Origin: a virus
Virus record (IMG/VR): IMGVR_UViG_3300010373_000052
Span: 1-58,198 of that record
Length of the DNA: 58,198 nucleotides
Strand: one strand, 5' to 3'
A program made the position numbers and the translations under genes. The notes beneath the pieces were generated by a model. It was not told the origin of the DNA. It was given only the letters and a program-made list of their open reading frames with translations, and searched no databases. Within the stretch, counting starts at the first letter, position 1. The number at the start of each line of letters is the position of its first letter. Below are positions 5,158-11,027 of this stretch, in pieces.

Positions 5158-5969
5158 CAAAACGGCTCCTCACCGGTAGGTTGCGACGACGCGGACTCGG
5201 TGACTGCGTCCGGCAGCTTCCAGCCGCCCTCGATGGCTTCGGTAAGCCACGTGCCGGATTTCCAGTCGAGTTCCTCAGCGTTGACGCCAAACAGGTGGAG
5301 TGCGGCGAGGTTGGCGTCCACGTCCCTCCCGCGGGAGATGGCCCACAGCCGCCGCACCTTGCCCTCCGAGAGCTTCTCTAGCGACTCGTCGTAGCGGGGC
5401 TGTGGCTTTCCCTTGCTGGGTTCCTTCAGCTCCCCCGTCTCGGGATCGTGCGCCGGTTGGGGGGCACGTCGCACGGTTCCCTGGGCTCGGCGGTTCGTCG
5501 TGGAGCCGTTGCCGTTGGCTGGCAGTACGTTCGTCGCCTTGTCCTCGGAGTGCCCGGATTCCAACCCGTCCTTGGCCCACAGATCCAGCGCCACACCGAA
5601 GCGCATGGCAGCGTTGCGGAGCGCGTCTCCGATCCGCTCCTTCATCGAAGGCCCGTCGCCTACGCCGAGGCGCGTTACCCCGCAGACCGTCAGCCGAATC
5701 CACAGGTTGCCCTCGCGGTCGAGGGCGGGCAGGCCCGATGCGTCAAGGGACAGGGGCTCCCACGTCCACTCCGGGTCGACGCTCAACAGCCGGTCGGTCA
5801 CGGCAGCGTGGCCGACGAAGTCCAAGTGCGCGGCGGGTAGGCCGTGGTAGCCACTGCAGACGTCGCACTTGCCCTTGGGCGAGTCCTTTTTGTACGGCTT
5901 GGGCAAGATCCCGACGGTGCCGGGCGGGAACGGCTCCCGCAGCTTTTCGAGTCGTTGATCCTCGGCCAT
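5157..5969 (-). CDS. Rad52-superfamily single-strand annealing protein (270 aa)
   Basis: Annealing proteins of this class pair complementary single strands made by a phage exonuclease. The N-terminal half (FPPGTVGILPKPYKK, a CDVC pair, VDPEWTWEPL, GVGDGPSMKERIGDALRNAA MRFG split across a helix) matches the conserved core of phage Rad52/22-like and DdrA-like proteins; the C-terminal ~100 residues are a charged, proline-rich linker plus a short helical domain. It sits immediately downstream of the exonuclease gene (TGATG overlap), the standard exo-annealase pair. ATG at 5969. Confidence 0.75.
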   Translation of the reverse strand: MAEDQRLEKLREPFPPGTVGILPKPYKKDSPKGKCDVCSGYHGLPAAHLDFVGHAAVTDRLLSVDPEWTWEPLSLDASGLPALDREGNLWIRLTVCGVTRLGVGDGPSMKERIGDALRNAAMRFGVALDLWAKDGLESGHSEDKATNVLPANGNGSTTNRRAQGTVRRAPQPAHDPETGELKEPSKGKPQPRYDESLEKLSEGKVRRLWAISRGRDVDANLAALHLFGVNAEELDWKSGTWLTEAIEGGWKLPDAVTESASSQPTGEEPF

Positions 5970-7834
5970 CACGCACCTCCCACAGACACCACGTCGGGCA
6001 CCTCGGGCAGACCCTTGCGCCACGTGACCAGATCGACCATCTTCAAGAAGACGTCGTGGTTGGCCTTGTCCAGCGGCAACTCGTAGAACGTGTAGCCCTC
6101 GTCGCCTCGCAGGTGGATGACACCCAGGCGGTCGGGTGGGGACCACGGCCCGGTGCCCACCTCTTGCACCTTCACCTTGCCGTCCTCCTCCCACGCCTCG
6201 TATTCGACGGTCTCGGTGGCGAAGGCGAGGGCGGTGAGCTGGGGCAGCCACGAATCGACGTAGATGCCTTTGCCGTCGTCCTGCTGGTTGGTGCTGTTGT
6301 GGGTCGGCACCATCTGTTCGCCACACAGATAGGTGTGGTCGGGGCTGTCAACGGCGATGCATTGGGTGGGCACCGACACGGTTGGCTCTACCGAGACGAT
6401 GAGGCGGCGACGGCCGTGCGCGGTGCCCTCAACCCGAACGGCGTCCCGCTTGTGCGCCACGTGGCGGAATGGGTTGTCTCGGTGGGGGGTGAATGCCACC
6501 CGATAGACGGTCACCTCCAGTCCGAACCCATGCTTGGTGAACGTGGACTGAGACGCATGCCAACCAAGCGAGACGACCAGTTCGTATACGTCCGCCGCAA
6601 GCTGCTTGTCGACAACGTCAAAGACGGCCTGGCGTCGTTTCTTGTTCCAGGTTCCGTCGGTATCCATGAGCCCCTGCAGCAACGCAAGGCGCTGGGATTG
6701 GCTTCCGCGCAAGTACGACCTCGGGACATGCTTATCAATGCTTGTGTCTCCGGTGGCTCCCATCTGACCGCAAGCTCGTAGATAAGGACGGAAGCCCAAC
6801 ACGTTCCACGACTCACCAGGATTCTCTGAGAGCGTGAAACCAGCATCACGGAACGCCTGCGCAACCGGAGCCTTGAGTCCGGGCAGGCTCACCCGCGTGT
6901 CACAACGGGTTCCATCGCCCAGCCATGCGCCGAGGAGGTACGGGTCTAACGGCAGGTCGGCGTCGGGCAAATCAAGCGGGGCTGGATTGACAACGCCGTA
7001 ACGACGTCGGGCACCGCGGCCCACCCTGGCGTTAATGTCGTCAGCAAGCTCGATTGTGGTCTTGACGCTGCGCGTCCCAGTAGCCATATGCGTGACCAGC
7101 CAGCGGTGGTCGTAATCACAAACCACCGATGACCCATCGTCAAACGTGACTCGGTAACAGTCCTTCTCATGGATGGCCGACTTCCCTACGACGCGAACAG
7201 GAGCGCCATCGTGACCGAAGACGCTGTCGCCGACAGCGATCGCGCCCATCGTGGTCCAACCCGCTGGGGTTGGAATCGGGGTGTCGAGAGATAGACCCTT
7301 CCAGTCGAGCAACCAGTCGTCCCCGACGATGCGGGCTCGCAGGTCGCCCGTGCCGATGTACTTGCCGGGGTAGCGCACCACCGTCTCGGTGGAGATGACC
7401 TCGGGCATGTGGTCGGCCCACCATGCCTCGATGCCGAGCACGTAGCCCAGGGCCGTCTCGGTCAGCTCGTCGGCGTTGCGGTCCTTCCACGTGCGGGCGT
7501 TGTGGTCGTGGGCGATGGTCCACTCGATGAGCGCCTGGATGTCGATGTCCTCACCTGCCGCGAACGCTTCGGGCACCTTGTGGCACAGCGTCCCCATGGC
7601 CGCCCGGCCGTTCCAGATCCCGGCGTGGTGCTTGCGGAGCTTGTCGATGGCGTCCGCAACGTCCATGTGCAGCCACTCGTCGTGGTGGAGCACGGCGTAC
7701 ATGGCCGTCTCGCGTGCCGCGCCCCACGACAGGCCGGGCTTGGACAGGATGTCGATGATCGTCGTGACGCTCGGCTCCGTGCCCCGAATCTTCGAGTACG
7801 GCCGAGCCGGGACCAGCGTCCTCTCTCTCAGCAT
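5969..7834 (-). CDS. PD-(D/E)XK (RecB/Cas4-like) exonuclease interrupted by an intein (621 aa precursor)
   Basis: The mature exonuclease would be 287 aa after removal of a 334-aa intein. Extein features: an early His (GTLCHKVPEAF), the GTGDLRARI strand with catalytic Asp, then WLLDWK giving the Asp-x-Lys core, and after the intein STNQQDDGKGIYVDSWLPQL with the Gln/Tyr motif of RecB-type nucleases. The intein sits directly after the catalytic Lys, so unspliced protein should be inactive. The ATG at 7834 overlaps the upstream stop, which fixes the start. Works with the annealing protein encoded next. Confidence 0.85.
   Translation of the reverse strand: MLRERTLVPARPYSKIRGTEPSVTTIIDILSKPGLSWGAARETAMYAVLHHDEWLHMDVADAIDKLRKHHAGIWNGRAAMGTLCHKVPEAFAAGEDIDIQALIEWTIAHDHNARTWKDRNADELTETALGYVLGIEAWWADHMPEVISTETVVRYPGKYIGTGDLRARIVGDDWLLDWKGLSLDTPIPTPAGWTTMGAIAVGDSVFGHDGAPVRVVGKSAIHEKDCYRVTFDDGSSVVCDYDHRWLVTHMATGTRSVKTTIELADDINARVGRGARRRYGVVNPAPLDLPDADLPLDPYLLGAWLGDGTRCDTRVSLPGLKAPVAQAFRDAGFTLSENPGESWNVLGFRPYLRACGQMGATGDTSIDKHVPRSYLRGSQSQRLALLQGLMDTDGTWNKKRRQAVFDVVDKQLAADVYELVVSLGWHASQSTFTKHGFGLEVTVYRVAFTPHRDNPFRHVAHKRDAVRVEGTAHGRRRLIVSVEPTVSVPTQCIAVDSPDHTYLCGEQMVPTHNSTNQQDDGKGIYVDSWLPQLTALAFATETVEYEAWEEDGKVKVQEVGTGPWSPPDRLGVIHLRGDEGYTFYELPLDKANHDVFLKMVDLVTWRKGLPEVPDVVSVGGA
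6296..7297 (-). mobile_element. Homing intein with LAGLIDADG endonuclease (334 aa), class 3 type
   Basis: The insert begins GLSLDTPIPTPAGW, without the Cys or Ser nucleophile usual at position 1, and ends MVPTHN before Ser. Splicing block B has His and Trp (DYDHRWLVTH), block F carries Cys (TQCIAVDSPDHTYLC) and block G carries Thr before His-Asn: the Trp-Cys-Thr set that defines class 3 inteins. Two dodecapeptide motifs, YLLGAWLGDG and ALLQGLMDTDG (60-85 residues apart), show a homing endonuclease that could still be active. Boundaries are inferred from these blocks; if Gly stays in the extein they shift by one codon. Confidence 0.85.
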
Positions 7835-8538: not shown

Positions 8539-8701
8539 TGAGCCTCCCCTTGGCTGCCATTTCGCGGAGGTGGTCGTAGATCTGGTAACGGCGCTCGCCG
8601 CGGTGCCAGTGGCGGAACTTCCATCCGCAACTGCACTCCGCCAACCGCTCGTCTTTTTGCGGGTCCCCGTCCTGAATGCGGTGGTACTCGACGGCGCTCA
8701 C
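8531..8701 (-). CDS. Cys mini-protein with CSCGW motif (56 aa)
   Basis: GTG at 8701 overlaps the stop of the upstream gene (GTGA). Contains AECSCGWKFRHWHRG and further aromatic/basic residues (RRYQIYDHLREMA). The Cys-x-Cys-Gly-Trp turn plus His points to a single metal site. Paralog-like to 8386..8538 in layout. Unknown function. Confidence 0.65.
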   Translation of the reverse strand: MSAVEYHRIQDGDPQKDERLAECSCGWKFRHWHRGERRYQIYDHLREMAAKGRLSE

Positions 8702-9066
8702 GGCAGGTCCCCACTCGCGATGGCGGCGAACATGCGGTCAGGCAGTGGGTCGTCCCACCACACGTCGACGAACTCGACGCCGCTACCGGGATCAGAAACC
8801 CCGGTGTCTCGACCGGCGTGGTAACGGTTGACCCGCACCTCCTCGTCGCCGACGATGAAGCGGACGCGGACGGAGCGAATGAGCTGGGCCGCTTGGTCCA
8901 GCCTGTACTCGTGAGCTGCTCGGCGGTCGTCCCACTCGAACCGGTCGTGTAGTGCGTGGTCGGGGTCGGTAGCTTCCTCTACCAAGTCGACCGGGCGCAG
9001 TTCGCCCCGACGCTTGTAGAGCTCCTCCAGCACCGCCTCTACAACGGACGTGGCGTCAGTCGTCAT
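8698..9066 (-). CDS. Conserved actinophage hypothetical protein (122 aa)
   Basis: ATG at 9066 overlaps the upstream stop (ATGA). N-terminal helix (VVEAVLEELYKRRG), then DLVEEATDPDHALHDRFEWDD and QAAQLIRSVRVRF, followed by a beta-rich acidic C-terminus. The HDRFEWDD...RLDQAAQLIRS pattern is familiar from actinobacteriophage early proteins without known function. Confidence 0.7.
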   Translation of the reverse strand: MTTDATSVVEAVLEELYKRRGELRPVDLVEEATDPDHALHDRFEWDDRRAAHEYRLDQAAQLIRSVRVRFIVGDEEVRVNRYHAGRDTGVSDPGSGVEFVDVWWDDPLPDRMFAAIASGDLP

Positions 9067-9539
9067 CCCGCCACCTCGACAATCTCCAACTCGTCGTTCA
9101 CTTGGAAGGTGCCGAACGTTCCACCCTTCTCCGGGCGCCACTCGCCGACGCCATCGCCCGTGCCTCCGGCATCGACCAACGCCAACACTGAGGACTTGTC
9201 GTAGAAACGGGCACCGCCCACTACGGCCGACTTGAACGCCGCCGCAGGGAATCCCACACTGCCGTCGGCCATGCGGTAGATGGACTCTTGAAAGTCGCCT
9301 TCTGGATCGCGGATCGTCTTCTGCTTCTTCCGACCCTGCTGGGCGTCCAGCATGATCTGTTTCGCCTTGGCGCTCCAAGCGTGAACGATTAACGGCGCCG
9401 TGCCAATCACTGGGACCAGCACGGTCCGTCGCTCGATGCGTTGGATCGAGATCGCAGCCGATCCAGTTTCAGCCGGTGTCGCGACCTTGGTCCCCTTCGG
9501 AACCTTCCCGTTCGTCTTGACCTCAGTTGCCGTAGTCAC
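9063..9539 (-). CDS. Phage recombination-cassette protein of unknown function (158 aa)
   Basis: GTG at 9539 with GGAGGA nine bases upstream; this is the first gene after the pentanucleotide array. Core: RRTVLVPVIGTAPLIVHAWSAKAKQ, then a Gln/Lys-rich helix, then FQESIYRMADGSVGFPAAAFKSAVVGGARF. This core is known to me from phage proteins near RecT/RecB-type genes but has no firm function. It may be a nucleoid- or DNA-binding partner of the exonuclease/annealase pair. Confidence 0.7.
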   Translation of the reverse strand: MTTATEVKTNGKVPKGTKVATPAETGSAAISIQRIERRTVLVPVIGTAPLIVHAWSAKAKQIMLDAQQGRKKQKTIRDPEGDFQESIYRMADGSVGFPAAAFKSAVVGGARFYDKSSVLALVDAGGTGDGVGEWRPEKGGTFGTFQVNDELEIVEVAG

Positions 9540-9572
9540 CTCGAAAACTCCTCCCTCTTGGTTGTTGGCTGT

Positions 9573-9840
9573 AGGCCATGCCCGGCCCTGCCCAGCGGAG
9601 CCCTGACAGGCCCAGCCACGCATAGGCCATGCCAGCCGCGCCCTGCCATGCCCTGCCCAGCGAGGCCTAGCCGTGCCATGCCTGCCGTGCCGTGCCACGC
9701 CATGCCCAGAGCCGCCGGGCCATGCCACGCCGGCCTAGCCACGCCTGGCCGAGCCCCGCCTTGCCGAGCCGAGCCGGGCCAAGCCTGGCAAGCCATGCCG
9801 CGCCGAGTCGCGCCCTGCCGGGCCCTGCCACGCCCCGACT
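9573..9840. repeat. Degenerate NNGCC pentanucleotide array (~53 units), non-coding
   Basis: Between two tightly packed genes lie ~310 bp without a credible gene. From 9573 the + strand parses almost entirely into five-base units ending in GCC (aggcc atgcc cggcc ctgcc and so on; minus strand GGCNN), with only occasional 4-, 6-, 7- or 8-base units. The first two bases vary widely while GCC is kept, so this is not a simple microsatellite. Frames remain open by composition, but none has a ribosome site and the period is not a multiple of three. It sits just upstream of the recombination genes. Role unknown. Confidence 0.85.
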
Positions 9841-9851
9841 GGTAGAAAACT

Positions 9852-10007
9852 TCACGACTCAACCGCCTCGAACCGGTCGCACAGACAATCCAGGCACGCC
9901 TCCCAGGCCCACGTCTCCACGTGCGCCTCGCTCGAATGTCCGCAGACACATGAGCCACCAGCCGACGGGGACTGCACGTCCAGCCGACGCACCGTGGGTT
10001 CACTCAC
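9852..10007 (-). CDS. Cys/His mini-protein (51 aa)
   Basis: GTG at 10007 overlaps the upstream stop. CVCGHSSEAH and WEACLDCLCDRF supply C-x-C-x2-H...C-x2-C-x-C, a compact zinc site of a kind frequent in actinobacterial phages. The last gene before the pentanucleotide array. Function unknown. Confidence 0.65.
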   Translation of the reverse strand: MSEPTVRRLDVQSPSAGGSCVCGHSSEAHVETWAWEACLDCLCDRFEAVES

Positions 10008-10194
10008 CACGACTGGCGTCCTTCCATGAGCAGCGCGCTCAGTGCCGCGCGGCGCAGGTTGTCCTTCGTCGTCTCGTCCACGTCGGGGAAGGCTGCGAGG
10101 TGGCGGTCGTAGTGCTGCTCGTGCCACGGCAACGAGTACGGCAGCGGGTAGCCCTCGGTGGGCAGGCACGGCATCCCGCAGGGGCACGTGTAGC

Positions 10195-10198
<4 letters not shown>
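10004..10198 (-). CDS. Cys-rich N-terminus mini-protein (64 aa)
   Basis: GTG at 10198 overlaps the stop of the Ala-repeat gene within the repeated junction sequence TCACAGCCAGCCC. Begins SYTCPCGMPCLP, a three-Cys knuckle, then HEQHYDRHL and an amphipathic helix (NLRRAALSALLMEG). Unknown function. Confidence 0.65.
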
Positions 10199-10847
<649 letters not shown>

Positions 10848-10851
<4 letters not shown>

Positions 10852-11027
10852 AGCCAGCCCCTGACACTCCAGCGCCGAATGGTCTCGGCTGAGATGTCCT
10901 CGCCGTAGGTGGCCGTGAGGTGACGGGCCACGTCGTGCCATGACCGGCCGTGGTCCCGCCACCAGCCGACATCGTTGGCCAGGTCCCCACGGGTGAGCGA
11001 GTGCCACAGGGCGAAGGTGGTTTTCAT
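10848..11027 (-). CDS. Small helix-turn-helix protein (59 aa)
   Basis: ATG at 11027 overlaps the excisionase-like gene stop (ATGA). The C-terminal two thirds read SWHDVARHLTATYG then EDISAETIRRWSVRGW, a helix-turn-helix with the WHDVA...ISAETIRRW pattern also seen in transposase- and recombinase-type HTH domains. Probably DNA binding; its stop lies in the repeated GGGCTGGCTGTGA junction. Confidence 0.65.

Follow-up and report, generated by a model that had tools for sequence, protein, structure and literature searches.

A degenerate pentanucleotide repeat in a temperate-looking actinophage is very probably a VIPR guide-RNA array

The window, as we call the whole stretch of DNA analysed here, is a virus fragment of 58,198 bases from IMG/VR. 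On its minus strand, which is the strand of the surrounding genes, about 53 GGCNN units run from position 9834 to 9573, beginning GGCGT GGCAG GGCCC. The array is intergenic: the upstream gene stops at about 9852, and the repeat fades out roughly 34 nt before the start, at 9539, of a gene on the same strand that we call vipr (Table 1). The names vipr, vap and vrRNA follow VIPR (Viral Interference Programmable Repeat), a system posted on bioRxiv in April 2026 (PMC13142463). Also on the minus strand, 10195-10862 encodes an Imm5-like protein (PF21805, E=5e-14), whose C-terminal region holds NARYAA/YAYAYA/poly-Ala repeats from GGC-rich triplets (10252-10445) that are coding and distinct from the GGCNN array. 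An exonuclease-like gene at 5969-7810 (minus) reads ...WLLDWKG / SLDTPIPTPAGW ... VPTHN / STNQ... and is seemingly interrupted by an intein next to its DWK motif (LAGLIDADG_3 domain, E=1e-4; boundaries placed by eye). Positions 1-136, at the contig edge, form an imperfect 12/24-bp G+C-rich tandem repeat.

Table 1. Coordinates of the array, its modules and the adjoining genes in the window.
Feature	Position	Strand	Basis
vap-like neighbour (phrog_15946), ATGA overlap with vipr stop	8698..9066	-	profile match
vipr (phrog_4652), 158 aa, GTG start, RBS GGAGGAG, 71-residue in-frame internal deletion versus relatives	9063..9539	-	profile match and alignment
vipr deletion junction AAGTC/CTCAG, near 9192	9190..9196	-	alignment
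Predicted vrRNA array, ~53 GGCNN units in five modules	9573..9834	-	parse and Tandem Repeats Finder
Module 1: NN = GT AG CC AG GC TC GC AT TT, tetramer GCCA (9789-9786)	9786..9834	-	array parse
Module 2: NN = TT CC TC TC AA GG TC CA GT TA, tetramer GGCC (9735-9732)	9732..9785	-	array parse
Module 3: NN = GT AT CC GG TG AT GT AC AC, tetramer GGCA (9686-9683)	9683..9731	-	array parse
Module 4: NN = AT AC TA CT TG AG AT AG GC, tetramer GGCT (9637-9634)	9634..9682	-	array parse
Module 5: ~11 units, most degenerate (ATGCGT, GTCAG, CGCTG)	9573..9633	-	array parse

The periodicity of the array is real. It contains 47 GGC triplets, with successive triplets spaced by exactly 5 in 35 of 46 cases. The autocorrelation check proposed with the original prediction gave a lag-5 identity of 0.60, against 0.336 ± 0.034 (maximum 0.47) in 2,000 first-order shuffles, with further peaks at lags 10-30. 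Across the whole 58 kb, the best 16 lag-5 intervals of 200 bp all overlap the array, and the next best place outside it is at background level. The predicted count of about 53 degenerate pentamers also holds, since a tolerant parse yields 53 units. Seven of these are non-canonical, a fraction of 0.13 that is no outlier beside the median of 0.08 among 80 arrays, and the array looks mostly intact. Its units are tandem GGY/NN pentamers with hypervariable NN: between modules within one locus, NN pairs are identical at a rate of 0.07-0.10, compared with 0.0625 for equal use of the 16 dinucleotides, while GGY is kept. The original prediction was right that three bases are held by some mechanism while two are left free, and that the repeat is not a microsatellite.

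The phase of the array is not constant. Four-nucleotide units (GCCA, GGCC, GGCA and GGCT) shift the register every 49-54 nt, and because the register is broken in this way the array resolves into five modules of 9, 10, 9, 9 and about 11 pentamers, each 49-61 nt long; a repeat of period 49 at 9625-9745 was also picked up independently by Tandem Repeats Finder. Among the array loci compared, GGCA accounts for 218 of 242 GGCN tetramers, against 1 of 4 tetramers in the window, and the commonest inner module has 10 units with the tetramer counted. In a Bacteroidetes contig (L152), the pentamers are mostly GGT and the tetramer is still GGCA; in the array of L007, TCCA is the preferred tetramer. NN identity rises to 0.15-0.16 only in units adjoining the tetramer. 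Because NN is near-random inside modules and more alike beside the tetramer, the tetramer and its flanks appear to behave like a handle and the middle of the module like a guide. We lean, with some reserve, towards GGCA being a dedicated four-nucleotide punctuation at which continuous VIPR arrays divide into interchangeable cassettes, each a guide of about 10 units; the cassettes would be gained and lost whole by recombination in the conserved sequence around GGCA. At the array ends of the phages Quico, Gorge and Zizzle lies a strong terminal hairpin, GGCTGG-GCAA-CCAGCC, with a GCAA loop; no 3' tail is common to the subclade and none is clear in the window, and tails differ between VIPR types. 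One array in Streptomyces sp. WAC 01529 (L151, 3361-5099) has two guides with six consecutive NN alike (CT AA CC CC AA CT) and different edge units, which may be either duplicated guides or two guides against variants of one site.

Arrays of this kind are linked to one gene family. We scanned IMG/VR for (GGCNN)7GGC, that is, eight GGC with two free bases between them, without regard to genes, and recovered at least 120 loci. Many of the listed loci have several long degenerate intergenic arrays, on contigs of 39-76% G+C. A phrog_4652 protein is encoded nearby on the same strand in 85 of the 120 array loci listed, as compared with 1 of 96 control loci that had been retrieved with unrelated patterns. 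With an iterated profile the family is present in 87 of 122 loci, the window and Quico included, and among listed loci with arrays of at least 20 units it is present in 47 of 57. Matches to phrog_4652 include the gene downstream of the array in the window (E=3e-20), Quico gp57 (E=3e-58) and an array-side gene in a 45% G+C contig (E=2e-8). Array and vipr share a strand in 182 of the comparisons among these loci and are opposed in 3; the array lies only downstream of vipr in 45 loci, on both sides in 23 and only upstream in 16. For several of the ten strong arrays that lack the gene on the stretch examined, the array lies within 133 bp of the contig end. Those away from a contig end are L060 10559-10901, L073 3096-4308, L007 2561-3284, L011 8664-8858 and L038 10420-10586. 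Arrays of this last group may belong to divergent types of Vipr, supply guides that act in trans, or have their genes outside the stretch examined. The sole control locus that encodes a Vipr-family protein, L179, was one matching guide 3 of Gordonia phage UmaThurman.

The linked family can be identified with some precision. A profile of 75 phrog_4652 members matches PDB entry 36pp, 'SUSP1 Vipr protein', over residues 1-190 with E=3.3e-45, the next CRISPR match being Csm5 at 0.25. An AlphaFold model of an intact relative (L059) has pLDDT 92 and pTM 0.85, and in Foldseek its best solved matches are Csm3, Cas7-11 and Cmr subunits (E~1e-5); 36pp was not among these matches in a structure library extending to April 2026. 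As modelled, the phrog_4652 family is a Cas7/Csm3 RAMP fold. The gene next to vipr has phrog_15946-like relatives in 59 loci from several phyla, which suggests it as the natural candidate for a vap gene in the window.

According to the preprint, VIPR pairs a small phage-encoded RAMP protein, Vipr, with vrRNAs of 9-16 YNNGG units, in which GGY alternates with an NN that reads double-stranded DNA, one base being skipped per step, and it represses rival phages and satellites (PMC13142463). Seven types are described there, some with staggered arrays of overlapping vrRNAs and some with hammerhead ribozymes, together with accessory genes vap1-6; Escherichia phage SUSP1 and a Pseudomonas fulva prophage exemplify type II (PMC13142463). 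A literature search returned no further paper that names VIPR. The window resembles these examples in having a phage-encoded vipr-family gene with a RAMP fold and a GGY/NN array, in having modules of 9-11 units, inside the published 9-16 per guide, and in placing the array on the vipr strand in an intergenic flank with an accessory-like gene. It differs in that the known examples are separate RNAs of about 100 nt, each with a structured tail, whereas in the window guides lie head to tail in one continuous array with four-nucleotide punctuation, and in that its vipr is internally deleted. Fig. S18 of the preprint (PMC13142463) may show this layout under the name 'staggered arrays with overlapping vrRNAs', and GGCA punctuation may already appear there; punctuation and cassette turnover may go beyond its main text. 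A search of window positions 8900-10300 against Rfam found no family above threshold, hammerhead included.

The RAMP fold of the phrog_4652 model and the coating of guide RNA by a RAMP protein are common to class 1 CRISPR-Cas systems (Csm3/Cmr4/Cas7, Cas7-11). The VIPR family, in contrast, has a pentamer scaffold, a non-contiguous code and a single-domain protein of about 20 kDa, and no CRISPR repeats, spacers or other cas genes were identified beside the array. Membership of the locus in CRISPR-Cas was considered and rejected: the five-base period continues throughout, and the scanned neighbours belong to phrog_4652, phrog_15946, Imm5-like and HTH families.

Taken as a whole, the GGCNN repeat is, very probably, a VIPR guide-RNA array carried by an actinophage that looks temperate, with this copy probably defunct or supplied with Vipr in trans. 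The array belongs to a known, very recent kind, and the statement accompanying the original prediction that no element of this type had been described is overtaken by the preprint. From the array, its modular structure, its linkage to vipr and a vap-like gene and the RAMP fold of the family, all observed here, a course of events can be proposed by homology with the published system (PMC13142463). The array would be transcribed in the direction of the genes to give vrRNAs of about 10 GGC-NN units, their ends marked by the four-nucleotide unit (consensus GGCA, varied in the window) that breaks the five-nucleotide register. In an intact system Vipr would coat the RNA, each pentamer probably bound by one protomer, so that GGC is gripped and NN left exposed. 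These dinucleotides would then pair with double-stranded DNA, one target base being skipped per step, and the bound guide would keep a rival phage or satellite from being transcribed.

The original prediction placed its emphasis on elements acting at the level of DNA, namely a binding array, a replication origin or a Chi-like region controlling an exonuclease, and listed an RNA that binds protein along its length as a further option. The early-operon location and the exonuclease-like gene nearby would suit a DNA element, but we found no support for one, and such a function is very improbable because the array is linked to one RAMP-family gene, across many viruses, and locked to its coding strand; the hypervariable NN and guide-like modules argue the same way. 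The RNA option was rightly listed. Still harder to credit is a coding repeat or a plain degenerate microsatellite. Frames do remain open through the array, and proteins are annotated over arrays in relatives, such as FLORINDA_59, but in GGC-NNG-GCN-NGG-CNN only an NN of TA can close a frame, so long open reading frames are uninformative as to coding. The same property undoes the earlier argument that a period of five excludes coding, although its conclusion is favoured on other grounds, since single-unit and four-nucleotide length changes disregard codon phase; a microsatellite, for its part, would conserve NN. The hypothetical proteins that annotators have called across vrRNA arrays in Florinda (L249, 547-789) and BobaPhett (L253, 548-712) are probably spurious, because such arrays are open in all frames by construction.

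The condition of the copy in the window is a separate matter. Its vipr lacks 213 bp, in frame, relative to UmaThurman and the contigs L128 and L129. The missing 71 residues include the R and W that scarcely vary in the family, as well as the RAMP sheet formed by the model's central beta strands, and the modelled window protein has a pTM of 0.59 and almost no sheet, against 0.85 for the intact relative. The deletion bears on function, not on descent. The vap-like protein differs from its relatives in its C-terminal third, after residue ~75. Because vipr is without its RAMP core and, of the four tetramers, three differ from GGCA, the VIPR copy in the window is probably defunct or dependent on Vipr in trans, and decay after the loss of vipr is the simplest reading. 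It is possible, if rather doubtful, that the cassette is intact in nature and that the deletion arose in assembly or represents a minor variant of the metagenomic population, as the exactly in-frame deletion, the well-conserved RBS and flanking segments on both sides and the unexceptional fraction of non-canonical units might suggest; the scarcity of GGCA and the diverged vap-like C-terminus are, however, independent signs of decay. A largely intact array beside a truncated vipr, like the ten strong arrays lacking the gene, could also reflect orphan guides served by the Vipr of a second phage sharing the cell, or a decoy RNA that titrates the Vipr of a rival. We regard this as unlikely, and simple decay after vipr loss predicts the same picture.

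How guides are gained and lost may be read from fifteen Mycobacterium phages whose Vipr is 98.5-100% identical to that of Quico. ByChance has one complete module fewer than BobaPhett and SwagPigglett, and Donkeykong exceeds Brocalys, LastJedi and Pippy by two complete modules; each such whole-module difference starts and stops at GGCA. Smaller differences involve a single pentamer, GGCCC or GGCGA being present once or twice, and leave the register unchanged; the few substitutions visible by eye are in NN. Because enough sequence is shared around the tetramer (GGCAT GGCA GGCGC) to permit homologous exchange, we infer that recombination at the module boundary is a likely route of guide gain and loss.

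Searches for targets yielded one suggestive lead. IMG/VR was scanned with decodes that skip one base: 8 exact units for guides 2 and 3 of the window, for guides 1 and 3 of UmaThurman and for one Quico guide, and 9 units for a second Quico guide. At 8 exact units the two window guides found no target, and neither their matches nor those of the two Quico guides extended into neighbouring units, as befits chance. UmaThurman guide 1 gave five matches. A merged guide pair from a Streptomyces prophage array matched 4 of 393 Streptomyces genomes at 1 mismatch, which we attribute to chance because a backwards control gave 3 hits, and an all-against-all guide scan over the array loci, allowing 0-3 skips, showed no skip to be clearly in excess after low-complexity guides were removed. 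With one skip at the wobble position, UmaThurman guide 3 agrees at 17 of 18 bases with a gene of the capsid operon, gp5, in Schnabeltier and Opie, which have the host Gordonia terrae 3612 in common with UmaThurman. Other skips give at best 4 or more mismatches within Schnabeltier. Relatives, Rem711 being one, agree at 18 of 18 bases; neither Rem711 nor the M. abscessus prophages belong to the Gordonia phages. Its eight-unit matches span 69 contigs, about 45 of them from one over-sampled capsid-gene family. Since about 14 unrelated families also match eight units, gp5 as a target of this guide is suggestive, not proven. A reading of the guide 3 pattern as 'GVAVGYAL' was set aside as tautological and not evidence.

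As a kind, then, the array is an ordinary VIPR array, and its informative parts are the punctuation and the turnover of cassettes. The linkage between GGCNN arrays and a RAMP family that defines VIPR was here recovered independently, from a repeat seen by eye, and is extended to actinophages with sequenced relatives on Mycobacterium smegmatis mc2 155 and Gordonia terrae 3612, both of them standard hosts in the laboratory. vrRNA arrays also explain a class of spurious 'hypothetical proteins'. The mycobacteriophage series offers a natural experiment on the acquisition and loss of guides, and if guides do move by recombination bounded by GGCA, this would be a simple route of adaptation without a Cas1-like integrase.
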